IMG/VR virus record: IMGVR_UViG_3300041964_000083
Coordinates: 62,001 to 126,000 of that record
Length of the DNA stretch: 64,000 nucleotides
From: a virus
Direction: 5' to 3' (one strand)
A model generated the notes under the pieces. The model was not told the origin of the DNA. It searched no databases and saw only the letters and a program-made list of their open reading frames with translations. Position 1 is the first letter of the stretch. Every line of letters starts with the position of its first letter. Both the position numbers and the translations under genes were made by a program. Positions 1 through 63,434 of this stretch are shown piece by piece.

Positions 1-75
1 GCTGACCCAGAAAGAGTACAGAAAGTGGGTAAACGCTTAGGCGATCGCTGGGCAAGAAATATGGGAGCAAAATAA
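1..75 (+). CDS. C-terminal end of an upstream gene (partial)
   Basis: Frame 1 is open from the window edge and ends at TAA 73-75, giving 24 residues that end in ARNMGAK. A HIP1 site lies inside it. The stop overlaps the ATG of the next gene (TAATG), so the two are probably co-transcribed and translationally coupled. Too little is visible to assign a function. Confidence 0.6.
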   Translation, partial: ADPERVQKVGKRLGDRWARNMGAK

Positions 76-3000
76 TGATTGCTGTTCGCTATGATCGTGC
101 CAAACCTAATTGCAAAAAAGGTAAGCCTTGCGGTAGCGTTTGCATTCCGCAAAAAGCTAAATGTCGTAAAGAATCTCCACAAGAAACTAATACAGGTGGG
201 GATGGCGCAATCAAAGCAGCGGGCTGGGCAGTTGCGGCTGCCGCAACTGCCGCATTAATTGGTGTGCCTGTAGCCACTTACGCTGGTGTGCGATCGCGTT
301 ATCGAGAAGGGTTTAAAGAATCTGCCAAAATGGCACAGTCAATGGCAAAGGATATAGAACCTATCAATGTAAAGGAAAAACAGCACTCTGTTGTATTTTG
401 TGTTGGTGGAATGGACTATGGGCATGAAAACACTAATCCTAATATTAGTGGCAGAATAATTTCTTTAGCCGTTAATAAGTCTTTATCCCAAAAAGATAAA
501 GGACTAAAGACAATTCCTATTTCTACACAAGGTAGTAATTTAGATAAGAAAGAGAAACCAGAAGGTATTCATCAATTTGTTGCTGATGGATTTAAGCGAA
601 CTGTTTACAAAAATGTGGTAGAGCAAGGTAGAAATAAAGCTGCGGTAAGGCTTGCTGCACAGGCGATCGCGTATCACGATAAATACCCAGATAAGCAAAT
701 CGTCATGTTTGGTACTTCTATGGGTGGGATGATTGTCAATGAAGCACAGGAGATACTAAAACAAGCCAAACCGTCTATGAAGAGCAAGCTTAAGTCAATG
801 ACGGTTGGAACTCCTTATTTTGGGCTAACTGAGCCTTGGGGAGAAACGACAGAGATTGCTGCACACGAAGACAAATTTACAACCGTTTTACCGACGCGAT
901 CAAAGACTAAGTTATTTAATCTCAAGCACGTAAACACTAAATCTACGGATGTGCTTCATGGACATTTGTTAAGTGATTATTTTCAGTCAGATGAGGTGAA
1001 AAAACATTTATCAGATTTTATTTATAAAGATGTTAAAACAACTAAAAATACCAAAAAAGACTCAGCTAACGAACCTAAATGTCGGACAGGACAACCATGT
1101 GGGGAGATTTGCATACCTAAAACACATAAATGCAGAATAGGTTCTTATTCTCCTGCAAAAAAAGCAAAAGTTGAAGCTGTAAAAAGAAAACGACGACAAG
1201 TCGCATTAATGAAATTTTCTGCCGCAATAGGCGTACTTGTGGCATTTGAAGCTGCGGTTGTTGCCACGAATTACGCAATTGACAGAAGGAATGAGCAAAC
1301 AATAGCTGAAGAAAAAGAGGTTAAAGACGATTTTCAATCAGATGTCGACAATTTTGTAGATTTTCGTTCCGAAATGAGAGATAAGGCTCGATCATGGGGT
1401 GTTGGTCGAGGATATACGGATATTGAGCTTGTAGATGATTGGTATTGGGGCTTTCCTCCTACAGGGTATATGCAAGAACCTATTCAAAGTGAAAACCAAG
1501 AACTAGAACAAGTTAAAAAATCACTACAAGACATGGAAAAGAAGTGGCGCGATCGCGCTAACGTTGAGCATTTTAACAATATCCCTGATACAGCGCATAG
1601 CAAGAATAGAAAAAAAGCTACTACAGATTCTATTGCTGTCACCAATCCACATTATCAAAAACTTATATTTCAATTAAAAACTATTCTAAATCGTGTTTAT
1701 ACAGATGGTATTGATCATTTTATAAAAGTAGAAGTTGATAAGGCTAATACTATAACTGGGTTATTCAGAGATGGTACAAAAATATTAGAGTTTACGATTA
1801 AAGGTAACGACATTACTTATAAAAAAGCAGGATTTAAAAACAAAAAAGACTCAACTTATTATGATTCTTTGGCATTAGAGTTAACGTTACGTAGTGATGC
1901 GATCAAGAAAAAAGATAAATGCGTAAAGGGTATATCTTGTGGGGCAGCTTGTGTTGCTTCTAATAAATCATGTCGATTGAAAGCTAACGCGATCGCGTCA
2001 TTTGGGGAACTGGCTCAACTAAGAACTACGGCTGCTCAAGTTGGTGGTGGAACTGCACCAACACCCGTAGCCGATCAAGACACATATGAAACGAACCCAG
2101 ATACTGGACAACCCTACACTATTCGAGAGCTAAAGAAAAAAGCATCAGAAAAAGGAGTATATCGTTACTCTGAAATGACAAGTGATCAGCTTAAAGAGGC
2201 GTTAAGGGCAACAGATAAAGACCCTGACCAACAAGAAAGGCTAGGGAAAACTCTAACTAGAGAGCGATCACTTACTGGGCGTGCCCAACGCGCTGGTTTA
2301 ATTGGCAAAACTAAACCTGAAAAGCAATTTGTTCAATGGACGCGGGAATGGAACAAGATTTCTAAGTTTGCTGATTATGTCGGCAAAGCGCCACTAGGTT
2401 GGGGGATGACAGCAACTGCTGCATTCTTGGCGGGTACAGCAGTTCGTACTTATGAGCAAGCTAAAGACCACTATCGACAAGGTTTGAATGACTCAGCACG
2501 AGCCGCTGAAGCGCGTGCCGTTGGAATGGATACGAGTCGCGTTAGCAAAGAAAATATTGCATTTGTGGTTGGCGGTTTTAATGGGTTAGGGCATTCATCT
2601 CAGAAGATGCGCGAACTATTGGAAGAAGACCCTCAGCTAACTGATAAAAATCATTATGTGCAATTTGATTTAAAAGAAACCGATGTTCCTCCTTACGACG
2701 GTAACAAGCGTAACCCCGATGGTTCTTATAGTTTGGGTTATTTAGGGTATGTTGCAACTAGAGGTGTAGGGCAATTTGCTAAAGATTTGACCAGACAGCG
2801 TAACGATGATGCTGTAGAACTAGCCGCCCAAATTTATGCTCATGCGGTACGACGCAATGCGACCAATTATCAGATGGCGCATAAAGACAAAAGCTTCAAC
2901 ATCGTGTCGCATTCGGTAGGTGGCGAAGTCGTGAACCAAGCAATGGATATCCTATCCAAAATGAAAGCGGTAGGGGGGAAGAGTTCACCTACAGGGAAGG

Positions 3001-4724
3001 AGGTACTAGAGCGAGTTAATATTGTTCACCTATCCGCTCCCGATACGGGGTTTACTGAAAACCTTCCAGGTAACTACCGCAATATTACTTCTGGGCAAGA
3101 CCCTTTTTCTTGGATGCCCAAACGTCGAGAAAAGTGGGTAAGTACGGTTAAAGGGAATGAGCCTGAAGATTATATTCGTGACCCAGAGGTGCGAGAACAG
3201 ATTCGTCAAGGGTTTGGCTATTACGATATCAGTGCTAAACAACGGGAACGTAGCGAGAAGACGCGATCGCGCAAGAAGAAAGAACCGAGTGCAGCTAAAT
3301 CAAAACCGAAGCCTAAACCTAAAGCAAAATCTCAAGGCACAGAACAGAAAACAGATGCTTACTGGGAAGCATTTAATGCGGTTCGCTTAGATGCAGCTCG
3401 AAAAAAAGCTAAATGTAAAACAGGTAAACCTTGTAAGGATGTCTGCATACCCAAAAACGCTATTTGCCGCGATGACGTGATTAAACGGGTAAAAATAGGT
3501 GCGGAAATTACAGGTAAAGGGTTATTGGCTGCTGCTGGTGTAGGACTAGCGGTAGGTGCTGCTAGTATTTTGTCACCTGGAGGTGGACTCCCCATGCCAG
3601 GGAAACCACCCAAAATTGATATTAAAGCACCTGTAGTTGATAAACAAGCTCAGAAAGAAAGATCAGAGCAAATACGTAAACAAGGCGAAGAAATTGGGCA
3701 GCAGGTTAAAGAAGGGTTAGAGAAAACACGACAGCGTTTTGAAGATGAGCGCAAAGCAAGACGAGAAGAGGAAAAAGTGGAACGGGAACGCAAAAAAACC
3801 GAAAGTAGAGCGCAACGACAAAAGGAACAAGAAGAAGCTTGGAACAAAATTCAAGCTAAAAGAAGACAAGCCATTGCCACCAACAAACAGGTAATTGATG
3901 AAAATTTCGATGATTGGGTTGATCGAGCTTCAGCTAATACACTGGATTTAACACCCGAAGAACGCGCAAAAAAAAGTGAAGCTGGCGATCGTTTCCTTAA
4001 TGGAAAAGGTATGGGGGCTATCGCTGGTGGTAGTTATAGCGAATTTTTGTTACTACAAAACCATGTAGCTAAATCTAGTCCAGAAGAAGCTTACAAAGCG
4101 TGGAAGCAAGAAATGGGGTTAACCAAAGAACAACTACAAGAAAAAGTTATTTCTAGGTATGCTCCTGATGACGAACTTGAAATGCAGCACGATGATATTG
4201 ACAAGGGAGAAGGCACAAAAGAAGAAAAAACGTTTTCTAAGCAGCTTGCTACAACACGTCACAACAACAAAGTAGCAGCATACAAAAAAATTGCCGAAAA
4301 AATGGCTAATGATGTTGACTTAGTAAACCCAAGGCAACGCAAGTCCGAATTTGAAATGTCAGCAAAAATGGCAGGTGCAGCTAAAGATTTAGTTGGTGGA
4401 ATGAATAAGACATTGCGGGATATTGAAGACTGGGATATAGGCAAAGATTTTGATAAGGTATTTAACCAATTTAAAGATAGATTTAAATCTAACTTTGGTG
4501 AAGGTAATACCCGATCACGTAGTACCAAAACATTTGCTGGTAATGATTGGTGGGATGCACTAGAAGTTAAGCAAGCTTCTACGGAACCAGAAGTTAAACA
4601 AGCATTTAAGAAAAAAGCTAGACAATACCATCCAGATATTAATAAAGCGCCAGAAGCTGAAGAACAAATGAAAGAAATTGTCAACGCTTACGAACTTTGG
4701 CAGCACCATAACAAGCGCAAATAG
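75..4724 (+). CDS. Modular Cys4 / membrane / hydrolase-like protein with C-terminal J domain
   Basis: This 1549-residue protein has four copies of a Cys motif, C-x5-C-x3-C-x6-C, at residues 13-30, 336-353, 616-633 and 1114-1131, usually with the core PCG..CIP. Hydrophobic segments follow at about 47-71, 377-400, 776-793 and 1149-1168. Modules 1 and 3 carry alpha/beta-hydrolase-like nucleophile elbows, GTSMGG (Ser215) and SHSVGG (Ser947), each after an F-V-GG strand. A charged coiled-coil region lies near 1190-1260. Residues about 1490-1545 form a J domain with the diagnostic HPD at 1519-1521, which would stimulate an Hsp70 such as DnaK. Position next to the tape measure suggests a virion or tail-assembly role, which is inference. 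The Cys motif recurs in the ParB-like protein at 20085-22139. The TAG stop abuts the next ATG in the same frame. The domain calls are from motifs only. Confidence 0.8.
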   Translation: MIAVRYDRAKPNCKKGKPCGSVCIPQKAKCRKESPQETNTGGDGAIKAAGWAVAAAATAALIGVPVATYAGVRSRYREGFKESAKMAQSMAKDIEPINVKEKQHSVVFCVGGMDYGHENTNPNISGRIISLAVNKSLSQKDKGLKTIPISTQGSNLDKKEKPEGIHQFVADGFKRTVYKNVVEQGRNKAAVRLAAQAIAYHDKYPDKQIVMFGTSMGGMIVNEAQEILKQAKPSMKSKLKSMTVGTPYFGLTEPWGETTEIAAHEDKFTTVLPTRSKTKLFNLKHVNTKSTDVLHGHLLSDYFQSDEVKKHLSDFIYKDVKTTKNTKKDSANEPKCRTGQPCGEICIPKTHKCRIGSYSPAKKAKVEAVKRKRRQVALMKFSAAIGVLVAFEAAVVATNYAIDRRNEQTIAEEKEVKDDFQSDVDNFVDFRSEMRDKARSWGVGRGYTDIELVDDWYWGFPPTGYMQEPIQSENQELEQVKKSLQDMEKKWRDRANVEHFNNIPDTAHSKNRKKATTDSIAVTNPHYQKLIFQLKTILNRVYTDGIDHFIKVEVDKANTITGLFRDGTKILEFTIKGNDITYKKAGFKNKKDSTYYDSLALELTLRSDAIKKKDKCVKGISCGAACVASNKSCRLKANAIASFGELAQLRTTAAQVGGGTAPTPVADQDTYETNPDTGQPYTIRELKKKASEKGVYRYSEMTSDQLKEALRATDKDPDQQERLGKTLTRERSLTGRAQRAGLIGKTKPEKQFVQWTREWNKISKFADYVGKAPLGWGMTATAAFLAGTAVRTYEQAKDHYRQGLNDSARAAEARAVGMDTSRVSKENIAFVVGGFNGLGHSSQKMRELLEEDPQLTDKNHYVQFDLKETDVPPYDGNKRNPDGSYSLGYLGYVATRGVGQFAKDLTRQRNDDAVELAAQIYAHAVRRNATNYQMAHKDKSFNIVSHSVGGEVVNQAMDILSKMKAVGGKSSPTGKEVLERVNIVHLSAPDTGFTENLPGNYRNITSGQDPFSWMPKRREKWVSTVKGNEPEDYIRDPEVREQIRQGFGYYDISAKQRERSEKTRSRKKKEPSAAKSKPKPKPKAKSQGTEQKTDAYWEAFNAVRLDAARKKAKCKTGKPCKDVCIPKNAICRDDVIKRVKIGAEITGKGLLAAAGVGLAVGAASILSPGGGLPMPGKPPKIDIKAPVVDKQAQKERSEQIRKQGEEIGQQVKEGLEKTRQRFEDERKARREEEKVERERKKTESRAQRQKEQEEAWNKIQAKRRQAIATNKQVIDENFDDWVDRASANTLDLTPEERAKKSEAGDRFLNGKGMGAIAGGSYSEFLLLQNHVAKSSPEEAYKAWKQEMGLTKEQLQEKVISRYAPDDELEMQHDDIDKGEGTKEEKTFSKQLATTRHNNKVAAYKKIAEKMANDVDLVNPRQRKSEFEMSAKMAGAAKDLVGGMNKTLRDIEDWDIGKDFDKVFNQFKDRFKSNFGEGNTRSRSTKTFAGNDWWDALEVKQASTEPEVKQAFKKKARQYHPDINKAPEAEEQMKEIVNAYELWQHHNKRK

Positions 4725-7700
4725 ATGCCAGCAACTAACAACGCGGTTCAAATTGTCATTAGTGCCACCGACAACGCCAGTGGTGTTATTTCCAACATTC
4801 AATCAAGCCTGAGTGGTTTATCAAAGCTTGTTTCTCAACCACTACAGACGGCATTATTAAATCTTAACCGTGTTACCAACTCTGTTTCTCAAGATATTGT
4901 CGATAAAGTTGGCGCAATTGGCAAATCATTCAACCAAGTTTTTAGCAATATAGCCAGCCCAGTCTCCTTTCCTCTGAGTGGGTTGACGCGATCGCTTGAT
5001 GAAATTCCGGGTTTATTCACATCAGCCTTCACTCGTGGTAGTCAAGCTGCAACCATAGCAATTCAGGATATTGGTGGAGTAGACACAAGGGATTTAAATC
5101 AGTCTCTTGGTGAAGTACCTAAACTATTTAACTCCACATTCACTCGTGGTGCTCAAGCTGCAAACAATGCGCTTAAAGAGATTGGTGGATTAGATGTAGG
5201 TGAGCTAAATCAATCTTTAGCAGGTGTACCACAACTATTCAACTCTACATTTATTCGCGGTAGTCAGGCAGCTAATAGCGCACTCCAGAATATTGGCGGT
5301 ATTGATACAGGCAAATTAACTCAATCCCTTGATAGAGTTCCACAACTATTCAACTCGACTTTCATTCGCAGCACTCAATCAGCTCAAAACGCGCTTAAAA
5401 GTATTGGTAGTGTTAATACCAGTGGATTGAGCCAGTCTTTAGGTGAAGTTCCAGCTTTGTTCGCTTCGGCATTTAATCGTAGCGGTCAGGTGGCAAACAA
5501 TGCTCTCCAGAATATTGGCAAATTAAATACTGGTGAACTATCTCAATCATTAGCCGAAGTTCCCAAACTATTTAACTCAACATTTACGCGCAGCAGTCAA
5601 GTAGCTCAGAATGCGCTACGGGATATTGGTGGAATAGAGACTGATGGATTGACGCGATCGCTAAATGAAATTCCAACCTTATTTGCAGCAACATTTACTC
5701 GCAGCGCTCAGTCGGCGCAAAAAGTCATTCAATCGATTGGTGGTGTAGAAACAAACCAGATAACACAGTCTTTAGCTGAAGTTCCAGGTTTATTCACATC
5801 AGCATTTACTCGTGGTACTAACGCTGCAACAAATGCTCTCCAATCGATGGGAGAATTAAATACTGAGGGACTAACTCAATCTCTGGATGAAGTACCGCAG
5901 CTTTTCAATTCAGCGTTTACCCGTGGAAGTCAGGCTGCAACTACAGCTCTTGGGTCAATTAATGGAATTGATACAGACAAACTAGACCAATCACTAAGTG
6001 AAGTACCAAGTTTATTTGCTAGGGTATTTAACCAAAGCAATCAGATTGCTCAAAACAATCTTGAATCGATTGGTGGAGTGGACACAAGGGAAATAACCCA
6101 ATCATTAGCTGAAGTTCCAACCTTATTCACATCAGCATTTAGTCGTGGAGAGCAGGTAGCACAAAATGCTTTTAAAGGTATTGGAAATATTAATACGGGT
6201 GAATTAAAGCAATCCTTAAACGAGATACCGAGTTTATTTAATTCAACATTTACTCGTAGCGCACAATTAGCACAGAACAAACTCAAAGATTTCGATGGTA
6301 TAAATACTGGCAAATTAACGCAATCGCTAAGTGAGGTTCCACAGCTTTTTAGTTCAACTTTTAATCGAAGTAGCCAAGTTGCCCAAAATGCTCTCCAGAA
6401 CATTGGCGACGTTAATACTGACGGATTAGCTCAATCATTGGGTGAAGTGCCGCGTTTATTTACTTCATTTTTTACCCGTGGTACTCAAACTGCTCAGAAT
6501 GCGCTTCAAAACATTGGTGATATTGATGCTAGTGAGCTAACGCGATCGCTAGACAAGATTCCAAGTTTATTCACAACCACATTCACCCGTAGTAGCCAAG
6601 TAGCAAAAAATGCGCTTCAAAACATTGGAGAAATAGATACGGGTAAATTAATCCAATCAATTGATGAGGTACCAAGCTTACTCGTATCAACATTTACTCG
6701 TGGTAGTCAAGCGGTTAACAACGCACTTCAAAATATTGATGGAATCGATACCGACAAACTAACTCAGTCTTTGTCAGAAGTACCAGCTTTGTTTACTTCA
6801 ACATTCAATCAGGGGAGTCGTGCAGCTACTAATGCTCTTCAGGCGATTGGTGGCATAGACACTGGAGGGTTAACTGAATCTCTTGGTGAAGTACCTCAAT
6901 TGTTTAATTCGGCATTTACTCGTGGTAAGCAATCGGCAAATAATGCCATTCAGGGTATTGGTGAATTAAGCACGGATAAACTTAATCAATCACTAGAAGA
7001 AATACCGCGACTATTTGGCACAACATTTACTCGTAGTAGGCAAGTTGCGGACAATGCTTTTCAAAATATTGATGGGATAAACACTGGTAAATTAGATCAG
7101 TCTTTAAATCAAATACTTAAACTTTTCACATCAACATTTAATCAAAGCAGTCAGGCTGCAACCAATGCTTTACAGAAAATTGGTGGAGTAGATACCGACA
7201 AACTAACTCAATCAATCAACGAAGTTCCCCAATTATTAGGCTCTTCATTTACTCGTGGCAGTCAAGCGGCAACTACGGCACTTCAGAATATTGGTAAGCT
7301 TGACACAGGCAGACTTACTCAATCTTTAGGCGAAATACCCGCTTTATTTAATTCAGCGTTTACTCGTGGTGGTCAAGTAGCACAAAATGCACTTGCAAGT
7401 GTTGATGGTATTGACACGAGTAGATTAACCCAATCATTGAGTGGTGTTCCACAACTATTCAACTCAGCATTTGATCGTAGCAGTCAAGCCGCAACCACCG
7501 CGCTTCAGAATATCGGTGAATTAAATACAAGCGGTTTAACCCAATCTCTTGGTGAGATTCCGACACTTTTTAATTCAGCGTTCACCCGTGGTTCGCAATC
7601 AGCTCAAAATGCTCTTCAGGACATTGGTGGTGTTGTCGATACAAGCGAACTTACTCAATCGCTGAGTGAAGTTCCACAAATTTTTAACTCAACATTCGCT

Positions 7701-10700
7701 CGTAGTAGTCAAGTTGCACAGAACGCCATACAGTCAATCGGGGAAGTCGATACGGGTGCGCTAAGTCAATCTTTGGGTGAAATACCGAGTTTATTTGCAT
7801 CAACATTTAATCGTAGTCGCCAAACGGCTTCAGATGCGCTTAAAGATATTGGAGGAGTAAACACCGACGAATTAAATCAATCGCTAGGCAAAATTCCGCA
7901 ACTCTTTAACTCGGCATTTAGTCGAGGTAGTCAGGTTGCCACAGATTCACTTCAAACCGTGGGTGAATTGAACACCGACGAATTAACGCGATCGCTAGCC
8001 GAAATACCTGATTTATTTAACTCGACCTTCACCCGTAGTCGTCAGTCAGCTCAAACTGCCTTACAGTCAATTGGTGGTATTGATACTGGAGAACTAAGCC
8101 AGTCTGTCAATAGTATCCCACCGCTCTTTACTTCAGCGTTTGATAAAGGCAGTCAAGCCGCAGAAAATGCACTTCAAGATATTGGTGGGGTAGATGCCCG
8201 TAAGTTGACACAATCTTTAGAAGATGTTCCGGGTTTATTCGCCTCGACATTTAATCGGAGCGCTCAAGCAGCACAGAACGCTCTCCAGAGCATCGGTGAA
8301 TTAAATACAAGTGGTTTAACTCAATCATTGAGTGAGGTTCCAGTTTTATTTAATTTGGCATTCACCCGTAGTAGTCAGGCTGCAAGCAACGCTCTTCAGG
8401 GTATCGACAAACTTGACACAAAGCGTTTAAGCCAATCACTAGACGAGATTCCTCAACTATTTACATCGACATTTACTCGTGGTAATCAAGTTGCTCAAGA
8501 TGCACTTCAGAATATTGATGGCGTCAATACAGATAACCTAAAGCAGTCGCTAAATGAAGTCCCAAGTTTATTTACATCAGTATTTAATCGTAGCCGTTCA
8601 GTTGCCACCAATACCCTTCGATCAATTGGTGGAGTAGATACTAGTGAATTAACGCGATCGCTAAGTGGAATACCTCAATTCTTCACTTCAGCATTTACCC
8701 GTGGTGTTCAGATAGCACAAAATACCTTTCAGAGTATTGGCGAACTTGACACTGGTGAATTGAATCAGTCTCTGAGTGAGATTCCTCAATTATTTAACTC
8801 CGCATTCACCCGTGGTAACCAATCTGCTACCAACGCTCTTCAGAATATTGGTAATGTAGACACTAGCGGACTGACTCAATCACTGACTGAAGTCCCGCAG
8901 ATTCTCAACTCAGCATTCACTCGCGGCAGTCAATCAGCAAACAGCGCACTCCAAGATATTGGTGGTGTTAATACAGATGAACTAACGCAATCGCTGAATG
9001 AAGTACCTCAACTCTTTAGCTCTACGTTTAATCGCGGCACTCAAGCCGCAACTAATGCTCTTCAAAACATTGGTGAACTCAATACAAGTGGTTTAACTCA
9101 AGCGCTAGGCGAGGTTCTAACTTTATTTAATTCAGCTTTCACTCGTGGTAGTCAGGCGGCAAACAGCGCACTTCAGTCCATTGATGATATCGACACGGGT
9201 AACTTAAATCGGTCTTTGGCTGAAATCCCTCAGTTATTCACTTCAACATTTAATCGGGGTACTCAAGCTGCGCGGAATGCTCTACAGTCAATTGATGGAG
9301 TAGATACAAATCAGCTGGGTCAATCTCTAAGTGAGGTTCCTCAGCTATTTACGTCGGCATTTACCCGTGGGGGTCAAGCAGCACAAGATACGATCGCGTC
9401 CGTGTTTTCAGATATCCCCGCAGATGTATCAACGCTGTTTAGTGATATATCGAATCGCGCTAAAACTTCGGTTGATAGTTTATTTCAAGGAATTGCACCA
9501 GATACTGGAAAACTTAATGCCGCAATTAAGCCTATTGGCAATGCTATACCAGATTCGCTAAAACCTGGAATTGCATCTGCACGGCAAACTTTTGCAAGCT
9601 TTTTTCAATCAATCCCTAATCAAGTTGATGATTGGCTTGCAGCACTACCTACATCATTAGGTAATGCTGTTAACAGTGCAGTTGACAGCATTGCATTAAA
9701 TTTTGATGGATTGACGCGATCGCTTACCGATGGTCTATCCGATGCCTTTGGTGGTGCGGCTCTAGGGATTGGTGATATTGGTGCTGGATTAAACCCTTTT
9801 GCAGGATTAGCATCTGGGATTAGCGGTGCTGCCACTGGATTAGATAAAGTCGGAACATCTATTAGTAGCGCGATCACATCTGGCTTTACCAAAGCCAATA
9901 CTCAAGTAGATGGATTTTTCACTGGAATTACAAACCGAGTACCCAATCTTCTATCGGGTTTACCCCAAGCTATTTTAGCTCAATTAGATACGTCTGTTAA
10001 AGCACTCACTCCTGATTTAAGCGGTATTCAAGCATCGTTTGGTCGAATTAGCGATGCATTTGCCATCGGATTTGAACCAGGAATCGCCGCAGCACAAGAA
10101 GAAGTTGAAACATTTTTCCGAGAAATTGCTCAAAATGCACCCGAATGGATGCGGGATTTACCGCAGTCAATTACAAATACATTCGATAGTGCATTTAATT
10201 CAATAAACCTTGGACAAGCCTCGTCAAACTTTTTAGAGTTTGGTGAAAATGTATTTTCTGTATTTGACAGTATTGGAGACGCAATCAATGATACTGGTAA
10301 TTTAATCCGAAATCTTGACACTATTTTCCAGACAACTCTAGGCACTAGTCTGGGTGACTTGGTTAAGAAACAAATTGAAGACCTTAACGATGATATGGGT
10401 AAGGTTTTTGATGACGGACAAATATTAATACCATTGTCAACAACATTAGGTGAGCTTGCTAAAACAGGTACACCCGCAGGTGCTAGCTTCTTCTCTGGGT
10501 TTTTTGGAGCTTTTGGTGAAGAATTTGCTAGTTTCTTTCCTACATTCACAAGTCTTATTTCAAAAGGAATAAGCAGTGTTACAGGGCTGATTCCATCTTT
10601 ATTCGGTTCAATTTCGTCGTTAATACCTAGTACCCTTAAAACGGCATTTTCTTCTGTAACAGCAACCGCAGGGTCAGCTTTCACTTCCATTTCGGCATTA

Positions 10701-20084: not shown

Positions 20085-22139
20085 GTGGCAACTCAACAAG
20101 ATTTAGATAAAACCTACCTCACTATCCTTCGTCGCATAATCGAGGAGCAGTTAGGCGATCGCGTAAATCGTTTTCTTTCGCTCAAATTCACTCCACAAGG
20201 CGTAACTGGTACATTCCTAAGTGAAGCTCGACGATTTAACTTCTCTGTTAATCCAACTGAAATCAAATATGGACTCGCTACAGAAAAGTTTGATAGTTAC
20301 GCCGTTGGTTCAGCCTCGAACCGTCTAGGGCTATCCCACTTACCACTAGGAACCGATGCGTACTCCTTAGCGTTCATGCAGGTATATGAACGGTTAGACG
20401 CGGGCAAAAAGAAGTGTGTGGTTGGTATTGGTTGTGGTGGAACCTGTATTAACAACAAGAAAATGTGTCGGTTGTTGGTTAAATCCCCTGAAACTAAAAA
20501 ACTGATACGAAAGCTAGGGGAGGTGCAGGATTATGTGCAGCGTAAACCTGGAAATGCCATACTTGCGCTACTTGGAGTCGCCGCAGTTGGAGCCGCAGCA
20601 TTTACCGCAGCCGCTTACTTTGCAGGAAAACCTAACTACAATGCAAAACCGTTAGAACCTCGATATCAGGGCAAGAAACCTACGGGTAAATTACCCAACA
20701 CAACGCCAAGAGCAGCGCGATCGTTTAAAACCCCTGCGTCAGAACCCGCACCACCCCCAGAACCACCTACTGTAGTTGTTGCGCCAGCCCAACCAACCGT
20801 AAACAAGCCACCAGTATCTGTAAAACGTACTCGTAAACCATCGACAAGCGTTCCAGAAGGTCAACTAGAGATTGATATGAATACTCGGTACGTAGAGACA
20901 GTGCGGGAGGTTAAGACCGTACCTGAAGATGTATCTGGGATAAAAGAATTGCCTATTGATCAAGTTAAAGTAGCACCGCGTTTGTTTCAGTACAAAATGC
21001 CAGAAGGGGTAGGCAAGCAAGCACAAAAAGATTTTAAAGAGAAAGGTGTAACAGGCGCATTAGCTGATGCTAAGGTATGGAACCCCAATTTGGCAGGAAG
21101 CTTGATGGTATGGCGCGTACCTAAAGGTGGGGTAAAAGATGGTGAAGGGAATCAGTTTGAAGAAGGTGAATCATTGTTGGTGCATGGACACCACCGATTA
21201 GCATTGGCTCAACGCGCGGAAGGTGTATTTGAGGGAGATCCGAGTACGGGTAAGGTTGTTCCCGGTAAGCCTGATAAGGTGCGCGTCGAGTTTATCAACG
21301 CACCTACTCCCAAAGAAGCACGGGTAGTGGGAGCGCTCCAGAATATTGCCCAAGGTGCGGGAACATCCAAGGATGCAGCGAATGTATTCCGAGAGCTTAA
21401 CGTCAATGACTCCAATCAACTAAAACAGTGGGGCATTTCACTTAAAGGGAAGGTTGCTGATGAAGGATTGGGGTTAGCTGGGCTTAACGATCATCTGTGG
21501 CGCAAGGTATCAGACCCTAGTTATCAGAAACAATCAGGGGAACGGAAACTTACGACAACGAGAGCTAGTGAAATTGGTAAGATTCGCAATCCTGACTTAC
21601 AGAATGAAGTTTGGGATGTGGTGCGTACCAGCGATGATGTAGACGATGATTTTGTGAAGTCGTTGAGCGATCGCGTACAGCGTCGATATGAGCGGGGTGA
21701 AATCGCATTCCAATCACCAGAAGCGGGTAACCAAATGTCGCTATTCGACCAAGCCAAGATTGCAGTGGCTGGTGAGAAAGAGCGGGCTGAAGCTGATTCA
21801 CATATCGAGCGACAGATTACGGATAATGATAAATTCTGGTCGGGTAAGCGGATGGGCGCGATTGCAGACCGATTAAAGTCAGAAAATGTTGGAGACTTGG
21901 ATTTAGACCGCGCTGGAGAAGTATCAGAACAGACCGCTAAAGTGCGTTGGCTCTACCGCAAGGCTAAATCCCTTCCCAATGACCCCAATGCTCAAGCAGT
22001 GGAATCTGCACTCAATAAGTTTGGAAACGAGATTCAGGCTGCGCGATCACAAGGGGCGGATAAAGCTGAAATCAAGAAGATTAAGGAGGCGCAATGGAAC
22101 GAAATGCAAAAACTTCTTACCGCGTTCTTAAACGGTTAA
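20085..22139 (+). CDS. Cys4/membrane protein with ParB-like domain
   Basis: This 684-residue protein (GTG start) has an N-terminal region of about 100 residues, the Cys motif C-x5-C-x3-C-x6-C at 111-128, a hydrophobic segment at about 157-180 and a Pro-rich linker (215-260). A ParB/sulfiredoxin-like domain follows, with the signature GHHRLAL at 368-374. The C-terminal third is helical and charged. The Cys-plus-membrane unit matches the four modules in the protein encoded at 75-4724, linking the two products. ParB-like domains can bind or cleave DNA or hydrolyse CTP; which applies here cannot be read from the sequence. The start is uncertain, as no ribosome site is visible. An ATG at 20065 gives only a 13-codon frame. 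Confidence 0.75.
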   Translation: MATQQDLDKTYLTILRRIIEEQLGDRVNRFLSLKFTPQGVTGTFLSEARRFNFSVNPTEIKYGLATEKFDSYAVGSASNRLGLSHLPLGTDAYSLAFMQVYERLDAGKKKCVVGIGCGGTCINNKKMCRLLVKSPETKKLIRKLGEVQDYVQRKPGNAILALLGVAAVGAAAFTAAAYFAGKPNYNAKPLEPRYQGKKPTGKLPNTTPRAARSFKTPASEPAPPPEPPTVVVAPAQPTVNKPPVSVKRTRKPSTSVPEGQLEIDMNTRYVETVREVKTVPEDVSGIKELPIDQVKVAPRLFQYKMPEGVGKQAQKDFKEKGVTGALADAKVWNPNLAGSLMVWRVPKGGVKDGEGNQFEEGESLLVHGHHRLALAQRAEGVFEGDPSTGKVVPGKPDKVRVEFINAPTPKEARVVGALQNIAQGAGTSKDAANVFRELNVNDSNQLKQWGISLKGKVADEGLGLAGLNDHLWRKVSDPSYQKQSGERKLTTTRASEIGKIRNPDLQNEVWDVVRTSDDVDDDFVKSLSDRVQRRYERGEIAFQSPEAGNQMSLFDQAKIAVAGEKERAEADSHIERQITDNDKFWSGKRMGAIADRLKSENVGDLDLDRAGEVSEQTAKVRWLYRKAKSLPNDPNAQAVESALNKFGNEIQAARSQGADKAEIKKIKEAQWNEMQKLLTAFLNG

Positions 22140-46746: not shown

Positions 46747-47413
46747 TGTCTATCTGAATGGTGTCTAGGGAACGCGGACCTTTAGCGGCATACTTCACCG
46801 GCGCTTGAAATTCAACGCTAGTTGCAGCACCCGTAAACCACTGTACCGTGATATCACATAGCGGTAGACCGGTGGGGTCAACTGAGTAAATAAGGTTAGC
46901 CTCCATGATTTTCACATGGCGCACACTACCAGATGCTGGGGTTGTCGTCGCGATCGTCACGTTTCCAACAGCGGTACTACCCGCGTTGTCGAGCGTGAAA
47001 GCCAAGCCCGCTACAGCACCGGTTATCGTGATTGTGCCGTTACTGGCTTTGGCGTTTACCCTAGGGTCTTCGTTGAGCTGTTTAGCGAGGTTTTGGGCAA
47101 TGATTGTCACCGTGTCAGCATTCTTTTGGCGATAGAGTGCTGTTCCTGGTGCTAGCGTCACGTTGGACGTACCACTGGTTGGTGGGGCATCACCTGCGAT
47201 CGCAAGAGAATAAACGTCACCCGTTGCACCGGCTGTAATAGTAACGGTAGATGTTTGGATTGCCGCTGCGGGGTCGAGGGAGATGTATTGCTCGACTTTG
47301 ACTTGATTTTCGTTTGGCGTAGCTACCCGGCACTCTGAAACAACAGACGCTGGTGCAGTTTGAGATAGTTTTGGTCGATTAAAAGTAAGTGTTCCAGTAG
47401 CTTGATCTGGCAT
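46724..47413 (-). CDS. Beta-rich phage structural protein
   Basis: This 229-residue protein is built of Thr/Val/Ala/Gly-rich strands (VTITAGATGDVYSLAIAGDA; NGTITITGAVAGLAFTLDNA) around a helical AQNLAKQLNEDPRVNA segment. Similar motifs occur in tail-associated and head-decoration proteins. First gene of the 47413-43899 minus-strand structural group. A tail or head surface role is inferred. Confidence 0.65.
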   Translation of the reverse strand: MPDQATGTLTFNRPKLSQTAPASVVSECRVATPNENQVKVEQYISLDPAAAIQTSTVTITAGATGDVYSLAIAGDAPPTSGTSNVTLAPGTALYRQKNADTVTIIAQNLAKQLNEDPRVNAKASNGTITITGAVAGLAFTLDNAGSTAVGNVTIATTTPASGSVRHVKIMEANLIYSVDPTGLPLCDITVQWFTGAATSVEFQAPVKYAAKGPRSLDTIQIDNGIPRPA

Positions 47414-47500
47414 AGCTGGTATAGGTTTTGAGTTGCAACTACTTCAACTTCTAACCTATGTAGTAGTTCAATCGACTGAATCACTCGAAATTGCATCGGC

Positions 47501-47519
47501 TGACAACGATTCGTTGTCA
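47501..47519. repeat. Dispersed palindrome, copy 11
   Basis: TGACAACGATTCGTTGTCA has perfect arms. Its right end (TCA 47517-47519) is the minus-strand TGA stop of the RHH gene at 47517-47723. Confidence 0.93.
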
Positions 47520-47723
47520 GTCATCGGCTGTTGGGTTGTTTAGCGATCGCGCATACCTCTCTACTAACTCGCTCCGACTAATCCCCAACCTTGTAGCTTC
47601 GGCATCAAGATTGGTGCGTGCCGTAGGCGTAAGCGATAAGTTGACATTTACCTTAGCTTCGCCATGTTCTGTTCTAGCCTCCCCTTTCTTCGGTTTTGTT
47701 TTAGTGAATCTTGTTTTTCCCAT
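47517..47723 (-). CDS. Ribbon-helix-helix-like regulator
   Basis: This 68-residue protein starts at ATG 47723 (MGKTRFTKTKPKKGEARTEH); a TTG start at 47732 is possible. A basic N-terminal tail precedes VNVNLSLTPTARTNLDAEAT and RLGISRSELVERYARSL, a good RHH strand-helix-helix. Divergent from the gene at 47785; the shared promoter region holds a half palindrome (TGACAACG at 47727-47734) overlapping a -35 box. It probably regulates itself and its divergent neighbour. Confidence 0.75.
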   Translation of the reverse strand: MGKTRFTKTKPKKGEARTEHGEAKVNVNLSLTPTARTNLDAEATRLGISRSELVERYARSLNNPTADD

Positions 47724-47725
47724 TA

Positions 47726-47754
47726 TTGACAACGTTTTGAATATTGCGTATTAT
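47726..47754 (+). promoter_or_regulatory. Sigma-70-type promoter
   Basis: TTGACA (47726-47731), a 17-nt spacer and TATTAT (47749-47754) closely match consensus. It would transcribe the gene at 47785. The -35 box begins a TGACAACG half-site of the dispersed palindrome (47727-47734), so a protein that binds the palindrome might also repress here. Confidence 0.7.
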
Positions 47755-47784
47755 TAAGTTATCAACTTTATGAGAAAAGGTCAA

Positions 47785-48531
47785 ATGACTCAATTTAAAG
47801 GATTTGGTTCAGCCCCAAAACTAATAAAAGGATGGCTGCTCCCAGAGTTGCAAGAGAATTACACCGACAACGCATACAACATGGCGTCATTAAAAACAAC
47901 GATAAACCTATGGACTGGTTATCTTTGTTACCGAAAAGTAGACAAAAGTGATTGTTTTGAGCGTCGAGTTGAAGTGGCGTCATCTTGTTTTGCTTTGTTA
48001 TGCCAAATAGATTCCGAGCTTGACAAACTAACAGCCGATGAAACAAACTTTAAGTCTTTGATTAATCGATTGAAAAATGATGATGACTTTTATATTTCGT
48101 TTATCAACAAAAGGTACGAATTAGTCAAAGCTCGGACACTTGCAGGAGATACCGAAGATTTGAATGTACTGATCAAAGAGTCATACGACTACAAGGATTG
48201 GCTTAAAGAATCTGGTGTTTTGTCTGCTGGTATTGAGTTAGTTGATGGCTGGGGGCATCCATTATCAGCAGCAGGTAAGGTAATTGACGGCGAAGAAACA
48301 ATGAATACTTGGGCATTTGCCAGCATGATTTGCGCTACAGCCACAAAACGACTAGAAGGTGGAAATCAAGAAAAAGCCGTTTCTATGTTGATTACATTTG
48401 GCGTACTTGAACCTGAAACATGGCAAACAAAAGTTGAAATATGTCGGCAAATAGACGCTGAGTACATTCAAATAATCAATCGCTGCCACGCTGAACTTGA
48501 AAACAAGCTGGAAAAAGCTTTTGAGAAGTAG
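47785..48531 (+). CDS. Hypothetical protein with N-terminal KGFG motif
   Basis: The start at 47785 (MTQFKGFGSAPKLIKGWLLP) is preceded by AAAAGG; ATG 47770 is only about 15 nt from the -10 box. The 248-residue product is helical and acidic (DEAE-like region DCFERRVEVASSCFALLCQI). It shares the KGFG start with the products at 38987 and 41217. It has its own near-consensus promoter. Function unknown. Confidence 0.7.
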   Translation: MTQFKGFGSAPKLIKGWLLPELQENYTDNAYNMASLKTTINLWTGYLCYRKVDKSDCFERRVEVASSCFALLCQIDSELDKLTADETNFKSLINRLKNDDDFYISFINKRYELVKARTLAGDTEDLNVLIKESYDYKDWLKESGVLSAGIELVDGWGHPLSAAGKVIDGEETMNTWAFASMICATATKRLEGGNQEKAVSMLITFGVLEPETWQTKVEICRQIDAEYIQIINRCHAELENKLEKAFEK

Positions 48532-61445: not shown

Positions 61446-63434
61446 TTACATCTCAGTGAACTTAATTTCGCAAGAGTGACACAAGGGCATCGAGAACAAA
61501 TTTAATTGACCTTGTTCCTCCAGCTGAAGCATTTTGCATTTTTTCACCCACCACGCAGGGGGTTGCTCTTCCCACCCCCACGGAAACCCTTGAGCCTTTA
61601 CGTCAGCTTCTAATGACTTGATTCTTGCGGCTATTTCTGGGTAGAAAAACTCTAGCTGCTCTAACTCATTAGGTTGAGCGTATGCTCCGCAGTTATGAAC
61701 CAATCCACCATGAGTAAGATAATTGGGTTCGCCAGCAATAGTAAGATTCTATGTTTGCTGAATTTCACTTTCGCTAACTGACTGAACAGTAGCCCACAAC
61801 CATCCATCCTCAAGAAAAGCGTATCGAGTTCTTTCGTTAGAGCGACCCACTTGATACATATGGCGAAATCCAGCAGAAATTGAGCTAGTTGATTTCTCTC
61901 TGGGCTTGGTTGTGCGAATACCATAAACTTTTCCTTGCCTTAAAAGCATTTCGTGAACTTGAAGCGCCAAAACTTTTGAAGTGGTGCAGTAAACCGAGTT
62001 CTTCTCTGTTTTCCCTTCTCTGTGTCGGGTATATTCAGATCCATCTCCAGTCCACATTGCTTCTAGTATTTTTGACTGCATGGCAACAGGCGCTAGCATT
62101 ATTGATTGGTTGAACGACTTCTCCCAACAGTATCGACCATCGATAAAACAAGAAACCCAGTCAGATGAACGCTTTCCGCAGTTCCTGACGGTAATAAATC
62201 TCCTACCCGTTCTGTCATCTACCCAATCTCTCCAGTGTGTTGGCAGTCCAAGCCCTTTTTCTATACAGAGCTTGATATCTAATGCCATTGTTTCGCTTTT
62301 AACAGAAACCGTAAAAATTATGCCGCCTTTACTGTTACGGTATTTATCTCTTCTCCAGTTGTAAGCCCCCTCTGCCATGAAATAGCCAAGCAATCTAAGT
62401 TGCTCATCTGTTAAGTTAATTGGTATTTCTTCTGTTCTAAATGGATAGCCCACGTAAAACTTTTGTTGGTTCCATACTGTTTGAGTTTTTCCTTGTGCAA
62501 ACTTCTGTTCGATTTCTCCAGCTTCTATGTAAATTGGTGCATCTATTTGAGCGCGACTGGTTCTTACTCCTTCTATTTTGGTTGTTTTATGTTGATATGG
62601 TCTGACATAAATAGGATGATTGCGTGTGATGTCTATTGCTGGTAAAAAATACGCTTTTAATGAAATCATTGGTTTTGGATCGTTACAATGAACTTTATAA
62701 ATGGGTTGAGGTGTAATACAACCTTCAATTGAACTGTGGATAACGTCACCGACTTCTAGATTGGCTATTTCAATCCATCCATTCGGTATTGAGATTAATG
62801 TGTCACCAGCAATACATAAACATTCTCCACTCATGCACAAGTTGTCTTTAACTGGGTTGCGGGGTAGGTTGTAAGACTTCATATAGCTTTGACAATCATC
62901 ATCACTAAACAACAAGGTAGGCGCAATCCAAACCCGGCTACCTTCTCGACGGTGAATTTCAGCTCCTTGTTTAAAATTACGCTTACGTCGATCGCTTTCA
63001 GCAATCCTTGCTCCCGTAACCAAACCAATTCGTTTTGCGCCTAATGTTTTGCGATCGCGCATAAACCTAGCAATTTACCGTTCTTTTAACCGCGTATACA
63101 TAAACTGATGCAAGTTTGCTCCTGGAAACCCCCAACGAAGAACTAAGTCTCGATAAATCATTGGATCTGGCGTACCGTCAGCGCGGGTATTTTCAACAGC
63201 TCGATAAATCTCTAAATGCCAGTTGTAGCGATTACAGGTATCTACGACGTATTGCTGTGTATCTGGAATACCTGTTCCGGTGTCTATATGCAAGATGCCT
63301 TTAAATTGGGGAGCTAAACTTGCAATGTGTGAAGAGACTAAAGAATCGTGACCCCCACTAAACATTCCCCAAATCTCGTCAACTTTATGTGTAGCAACAG
63401 CATCTTGAATTATTTCTACTGGCGTTAATTTCAT
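61446..63434 (-). pseudogene. PAPS-reductase-like gene with an intein and two in-frame stops
   Basis: One reading frame runs through 663 codons with two stops: TAA at 63075-63077 and TAG at 61749-61751. N-part: PP-loop SGGHDS in WGMFSGGHDSLVSSHIASLA, fitting the PAPS reductase/adenine-nucleotide alpha-hydrolase superfamily; then RIGLVTGARIAESDRRKRNF and NPVKDNLCMSGECL. The intein follows and the C-part resumes CGAYAQPNELEQLEFFYPEI, restoring the motif SGECLCGAYA. Host protein length would be about 286 residues. The TAA splits the N-part just after TRLKER; ATG 63062 could restart translation. The TAG sits in the intein, 19 residues before its end. So the gene is probably inactive unless stops are read through. 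Phage homologues often accompany ParB-like proteins; function unproven. Confidence 0.82.
61692..62816 (-). other. Intein with LAGLIDADG/DOD endonuclease, interrupted by TAG
   Basis: The intein (375 codons) starts with Cys in CIAGDTLISIPNGWIEIANL and ends NLTIAGEPNYLTHGGLVHN followed by Cys+1, the standard splicing blocks A and F/G. Block B is ITRNHPIYV. Two DOD motifs, LLGYFMAEGAY and ILEAMWTGDGS, mark a homing endonuclease. The TAG occurs in the C-terminal splicing block directly before NLTIAG, where a Tyr or Trp codon is usual. It inserts at SGECL/CGAYA, a conserved motif of the host protein. Confidence 0.88.

Follow-up and report, generated by a model that had tools for sequence, protein, structure and literature searches.

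A Cys4-tagged polyprotein with hydrolase-like and J-domain modules and predicted head-protease sites in a probable cyanophage

Described relatives and the setting of the locus

Injected polyvalent proteins, ejection proteins processed by a head protease and a functional phage J protein are all already known. The polyvalent proteins of phages and conjugative elements are large, multidomain and predicted to be injected with the DNA (Iyer et al., 2017, PMC5512222), in which they resemble the polyprotein described here, and their partner domains InPase, MuF, LPD1 and metalloprotease-like domains also lie near it. However, we assign the cutting here to the head protease and not to a metalloprotease within the protein, and the text of that paper does not contain DnaJ, Hsp70, hydrolase or lipase. 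In the giant Salmonella phage SPN3US and in phiKZ, head proteins are cut at a short motif by a prohead protease and some of them are ejected, according to the available part of the source (PMC5694885); that protease belongs to another family and its motif is A-x-E, as against [RK]-x-D/[AS] here (the slash marks the predicted cut), and the same part reports no J or lipase-like modules. The T1-like coliphage TLS (AY308796) has a homologous capsid protein and a DUF2213 protease with the same cleavage rule, but no Cys-tagged cargo polyprotein among its annotated genes. RB43 057w is a phage-encoded functional J domain working on host DnaK, as we predict for this locus; in the accessible part of its description (PMC3486835) it targets DnaK and sigma32 and is not a head polyprotein.

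Two sets of genes are alike in position and make-up: gp047/gp048 of the Aphanizomenon phage vB_AphaS-CL131 (MG209611), for which a published list counts 23 virion proteins, and those of the IMG/VR contig IMGVR_UViG_3300042288_002007 (L003 below). Both share with our polyprotein the place before the tape measure, the Cys4, hydrophobic and hydrolase modules and the protease sites. The CL131 modules lack a J domain, and in L003 the J domain lies mid-protein and not at the C-terminus; the modules are split over two genes, for which the record gives no functional annotation. Searches of open-licence literature and of libraries turned up neither such a combination within a single polyprotein nor the Cys4-hydrophobic repeat nor the DUF2213 cleavage rule, which is weak evidence of absence. 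The original prediction that no phage structural protein has this combination agrees with that literature, but polyvalent proteins delivered by the virion, the broader class, are known.

The window, the whole stretch of 64,000 nucleotides that was analysed, runs from base 62001 to base 126000 of a virus record of 154 kb. Across the whole window the octamer GCGATCGC (HIP1), which is typical of cyanobacteria, occurs 103 times against 0.5 expected, an excess that makes a cyanobacterial host very probable. As predicted, the polyprotein is encoded by a single uninterrupted open frame. Its start codon shares bases with the upstream gene's stop codon (TAATG), an operon arrangement, and a 3,821-aa tape measure begins at the very next base, 4725. 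The predicted position directly upstream of the tape measure is thus correct for this virus, and the adjacency recurs in CL131 and L003, but it is not a family-wide property: in three other relatives (L013, L016 and L017, the last a single hydrolase gene) the related protein is instead encoded immediately before the genes for the DUF2213 capsid protease and the major capsid protein. In the translation of window positions 4725-9500, many degenerate repeats of ~37 aa (LNQSLGEVPKLFNSTFTRGAQAANNALKEIGG...) can be seen by eye, and these make up at least the N-terminal third of the tape measure; a tblastn search with the N-terminus of the tape measure as query gave no phage relative.

Relatives of the polyprotein were found in phages CL131 and PaV-LD, in four more IMG/VR contigs and in one Leptolyngbyaceae genome bin. 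The whole protein and fragment 4 (Table 1) had no matches as queries against viral contigs, so that profiles were needed to find them. The neighbouring genes encode MuF, InPase, LPD1 (just under the cut-off) and a protein of the phrog 'minor head protein and DNA pilot'; PADLOC gave no match. Like a polyvalent protein, the polyprotein joins several unrelated activities (hydrolase and J) in one polypeptide, but InPase, MuF and LPD1 are encoded by its neighbours, none of the published-set domains being in the same polypeptide, and we therefore regard it as a polyvalent-like relative and not as a member of that class.

Modules of the polyprotein

The pattern C-x5-C-x3-C-x6-C occurs four times in the polyprotein (Table 1). 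Clear hydrophobic segments (mean hydropathy 1.74-1.94) follow close behind motifs 1 (aa 49-67), 2 and 4, whereas the best segment after motif 3 lies ~140 aa away and is weaker (mean hydropathy 1.13); the segments are Ala/Gly-rich. The anticipated fourfold repeat of Cys motif plus hydrophobic segment therefore stands for the four motifs and three of the segments, the fourth being distant and weak. A scan of the 154-kb record with the DNA pattern of the Cys motif gave 9 matches, every one on the + strand; the reverse strand and a reversed control each gave 0. At least eight further genes of this virus carry the motif, the portal among them, and the family is spread across the head genes of this virus and of related cyanophages. 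The partners of the motif in these Cys-tagged genes include a J domain (in a 296-aa gene), hydrolases, a metalloprotease-like domain (HEVGHFIHH), stretches that by eye resemble JAMM and coiled coils. The Cys4 profile had no match in the PDB, and zinc knuckle is our guess for the motif. Domains resembling JAMM/MPN proteases (HNHP or HTHP, then S..D) lie at L005:14311-16569 and L005:16651-17415, at L003:569-1261 and at L015:9067-10527; these stretches had no Pfam match at the cut-offs used.

Table 1. Features of the polyprotein gene and of the Cys-tagged portal gene, in window coordinates
Feature	Position (nt)	Strand	Basis
Whole polyprotein gene, 1,549 aa	75..4724	+	Uninterrupted open frame; relatives
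Predicted fragment 1, aa 1-329, 36 kDa: Cys4, hydrophobic helix, hydrolase 1	75..1061	+	Sites, alignment, AF2, Foldseek
Cys4 motif 1, aa 13-30	111..164	+	
Predicted prohead-protease site KKD/S, aa 327-330	1053..1064	+	
Predicted fragment 2, aa 330-592, 30 kDa: Cys4 motif 2, hydrophobic 378-396, slr1957-like 439-497, N-domain 528-590	1062..1850	+	
Cys4 motif 2, aa 336-353	1080..1133	+	
Two predicted sites, KKD/S (aa 590-593) and RSD/A (aa 606-609); 16-aa linker between cuts	1842..1901	+	
Predicted fragment 3, aa 609-1094, 54 kDa: Cys4 motif 3, Rho_N-like ~680, hydrophobic 772-790 (weak), pseudo-hydrolase	1899..3356	+	
Cys4 motif 3, aa 616-633	1920..1973	+	
Two predicted sites, KTD/A (aa 1092-1095, with DAY element) and RLD/A (aa 1104-1107); 12-aa linker between cuts	3348..3395	+	
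Predicted fragment 4, aa 1107-1549, 50 kDa: Cys4 motif 4, hydrophobic 1149-1167, long charged helical region, J domain	3393..4721	+	
Cys4 motif 4, aa 1114-1131; K replaces the usual G after the second Cys	3414..3467	+	
J domain, aa 1491-1549; HPD aa 1519-1521 = nt 4629-4637	4545..4721	+	Pfam DnaJ
Portal gene, Cys4 motif at nt 20415, RLD/A site just upstream	20085..22139	+	

Two regions of the protein, aa 61-335 and 761-1140, are mutually homologous (blastp 2e-15, 24% identity). The AlphaFold2 model of hydrolase 1 is a confident alpha/beta-hydrolase (pLDDT 81, pTM 0.84) for which Foldseek finds cutinases and Bacillus LipA as structural matches (probability 1.00, best E 2e-4), and structure prediction thus upholds the proposed fold for this domain, whose Pfam matches stay below the curated cut-offs. 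Its triad is complete (S215, D266, H297) and lies in conserved columns of a 13-copy alignment in which the Asp is present in 13 of 13 copies, the Ser in 11 of 13 and the His in most. The original prediction of two GxSxG hydrolase-like domains holds as far as two homologous domains go, but the exact motif is confined to hydrolase 1 (GTSMG). Hydrolase 2 reads SHSVG, has S947 and D1009 and carries Asn (N1028) in place of the triad His, a change from which it is probably inactive, and its counterparts in CL131 and L003 have lost the Ser; on these grounds we reject, as far as domain 2 is concerned, the reading of two active hydrolases. Decay of the third-module hydrolase in two ways, by loss of His here and of Ser in CL131 and L003, suggests that its role in that module is not catalytic. 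The hydrolase profile also gave WD40 matches, which we judged to be artefacts, since none of them contained a single stretch above threshold.

The C-terminal J domain was correctly foreseen: it is matched by Pfam DnaJ (E=9.8e-14, 51.6 bits vs a cut-off of 27.8), its HPD is intact and it matches many solved J domains. The AlphaFold2 model of fragment 4, which holds it, was poor and of low confidence and was left out of the fold search. A second J-domain gene of the same virus, upstream of the window (L005:4313-5203, record bases 47313-48203), encodes 296 aa with a Cys4 motif, a hydrophobic segment and a J domain (DnaJ 7.7e-15). J domains also lie inside the related polyproteins of L003/L014 (aa 854-909) and L013 (aa 967-1014), with a different module order in each, and none was found in CL131 gp048. 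Since its placement varies and it can be absent, the J module is a variable element that has undergone gain, loss or relocation.

Among the remaining modules, the N-domain of fragment 2 is common to other cargo genes. The slr1957-like stretch (window 1389-1565) is a weak match to a cyanobacterial family (1.1e-5, under the curated cut-off) and is possibly a domain acquired from the host. Rho_N was matched weakly and in the L003 relative only.

The predicted DUF2213 protease code and predicted processing

The motif [RK]-x-D/[AS], our predicted prohead-protease site, occurs 54 times against 6.2 expected in seven DUF2213 proteins, those of this virus, CL131, PaV-LD, L013, L016, L017 and coliphage TLS, assigned through Pfam or, for L017, through sequence and position. 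With altered spacing, P1 or P3 the excess is gone or strongly reduced, so the motif is specific for its spacing and for Asp at P1; Gly or Asn at P1' is also tolerated (17 vs 3.9 expected). Edman degradation of the mature TLS capsid protein gave the N-terminus ASDMGIW (PMC11447400), and the TLS capsid ORF (L012:15087-16061) reads ...AKND/ASDMGIW. TLS gp33 is a DUF2213 protein by Pfam, and the capsid proteins are homologous (cyanophage capsid profile vs PDB 9kmg, 7e-30; 9kmg vs TLS capsid protein, 5e-155), which together with the Edman N-terminus at the predicted cut ties the code to one experimental cleavage. The TLS authors infer that the capsid protein loses 45 residues (PMC11447400), but in the deposited ORF the Edman sequence begins at residue 28, and the loss would be of 27 residues, not 45, if translation starts there. 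R/K-x-D is found within the first 28 residues of every major capsid protein examined, with Ala/Ser next in five and Asp or Asn in L013, L016 and L017, and the major capsid proteins of this virus, CL131 and PaV-LD have one site near the N-terminus.

In this virus, the motif is found 15 times in Cys-tagged genes (7.1 expected) and 15 times in other structural-region genes (3.7 expected), ten of these 15 within the protease, with no excess in the remaining genes (33 vs 27 expected) or in the tape measure (3 vs 3). Of the 35 Cys motifs counted over related and hence not independent phages, 24 are preceded by a site no more than 35 aa away (3.0 expected). The polyprotein has five predicted sites, a total that by itself is not unusual (P 0.11), and each of its three internal Cys motifs has a site 9-10 residues upstream (random-placement P about 2e-5). 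Sites for the virus's own protease, predicted from the TLS-anchored code, therefore lie at module borders, as in a protein processed by the prohead protease, and capsid-protease sites in its modules point to the head. Judged from the sequences, processing by the head protease is well supported, and the polyprotein itself would be cut into the four fragments of Table 1. As a separate observation, CL131 gp012 (L006:8800-12981) is a fusion of portal, InPase and MuF (1,393 aa) with seven [RK]xD[AS] matches against 2.2 expected.

Other features of the cargo set may bear on entry into the head. The 296-aa J protein and the DUF2213 protease/scaffold of this virus end alike (NAWRKPLDLL and NSWNKPLDLV), and DUF2213 proteins of five other phages end in a similar tail. 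Among the frames scanned in this virus, no other has such a tail except one antisense frame inside the tape-measure gene, and the 1,549-aa polyprotein lacks it. In the 296-aa protein an R-K-D/S site lies shortly upstream of the tail, which would thus be cut off. Cargo proteins contain 13 copies of the element D[AS]Y..[GA] (DAY), where 1.0 would be expected, and 32,000 aa of this virus's other sequence contain one; this virus and PaV-LD also have it in their DUF2213 proteins. By analogy with T4 and phiKZ-like phages (PMC5694885), the shared tail and the DAY element have the features expected of capsid-targeting sequences and may be such sequences.

Proposed function and alternative readings

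The sequence analysis establishes module anatomy, homology, the enrichment and placement of sites and the match to the published TLS cleavage. We propose, with a probability of roughly 0.55, that the polyprotein is packaged in the head and processed by the protease, that its membrane-linked pieces are ejected with the DNA and that one of them recruits host DnaK. The polyprotein would enter the prohead during assembly, aided by the N-domain and the DAY element that it has in common with other cargo genes, and the DUF2213 prohead protease would cut it at [RK]-x-D/[AS] into four Cys4-headed proteins with hydrophobic segments: a cutinase/lipase-like hydrolase, a second piece, a pseudo-hydrolase and a J-domain protein. 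These products would leave the head with the DNA and work at the host membrane, where the hydrolase may modify a lipid or another ester. The original suggestion that the membrane segments could act at DNA entry is compatible with this picture. In the cellular proteins DjlA and mitochondrial Pam18, a hydrophobic segment, a linker and a J domain put Hsp70 at a membrane; these are not virus-borne and have neither a Cys4 tag nor hydrolases, and they serve as an analogy only. The J piece is arranged in a similar way, and could bring host DnaK to the entry site, where it would refold the ejected proteins or help draw them in. We infer packaging, virion presence and ejection of the pieces, and delivery to the next host in particular from the company that the modules keep, namely InPase, MuF, LPD1 and the DNA-pilot phrog; membrane location, enzyme activity and DnaK recruitment are predictions. 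A more specific version, which we offer only tentatively, is that an injected J protein within a Cys4-tagged head kit of membrane-linked proteins positions host Hsp70 at the site of entry, where it would serve as a motor for refolding or import, the phage counterpart of Pam18-Hsp70.

The original prediction gave the J domain a different task, that of recruiting DnaK to fold, hold or unfold the giant tape measure. The two genes do adjoin in this virus, CL131 and L003, but the relative sits beside the capsid protease in L013, L016 and L017, CL131 gp048 holds the same place without a J domain, and the head-protease sites fall in the modules while the tape measure has no site excess. Because synteny is not conserved and the CL131 protein has no J domain, we reject this as the main reading and consider it very unlikely. 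If DnaK were instead recruited in the producing cell, by a late-made J-domain protein that serves head-protein folding or assembly and is perhaps cut but not delivered, the place of the gene within the late structural cluster would be accounted for, and jumbo-phage J-domain proteins have been predicted to help folding and assembly via host Hsp70 (PMC7824862); the protease sites, moreover, indicate exposure in the prohead and not ejection. Such an assembly factor would leave the hydrolases, the hydrophobic segments and the JAMM-like, metalloprotease-like and InPase partners of the tagged set unexplained, and its J domain is not constant in close relatives, which makes it a doubtful account of the locus.

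The tagged proteins might also never be in the head: late hydrolases and the J protein could act in the membrane of the infected cell, remodelling lipids or blocking other phages. A lipase/cutinase fold preceded by a hydrophobic helix would suit such a membrane effector or superinfection factor, and the lack of a PDB match for the Cys4 profile would be compatible with such a role of the tag. However, the portal bears the tag too, the tagged genes have portal, MuF, protease and capsid genes for neighbours, and the tag is preceded by protease sites, so that we find this reading improbable. Our preferred reading of a head-packaged, processed and ejected polyprotein offers a testable interpretation for 'hypothetical' head genes of cyanophages, including phages of filamentous bloom-forming cyanobacteria. 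The rule [RK]-x-D/[AS] for DUF2213 proteases predicts processed virion proteins, T1-like coliphages included. Finally, if the J module is injected, the use of host Hsp70 by phages during DNA and protein entry would become directly testable.
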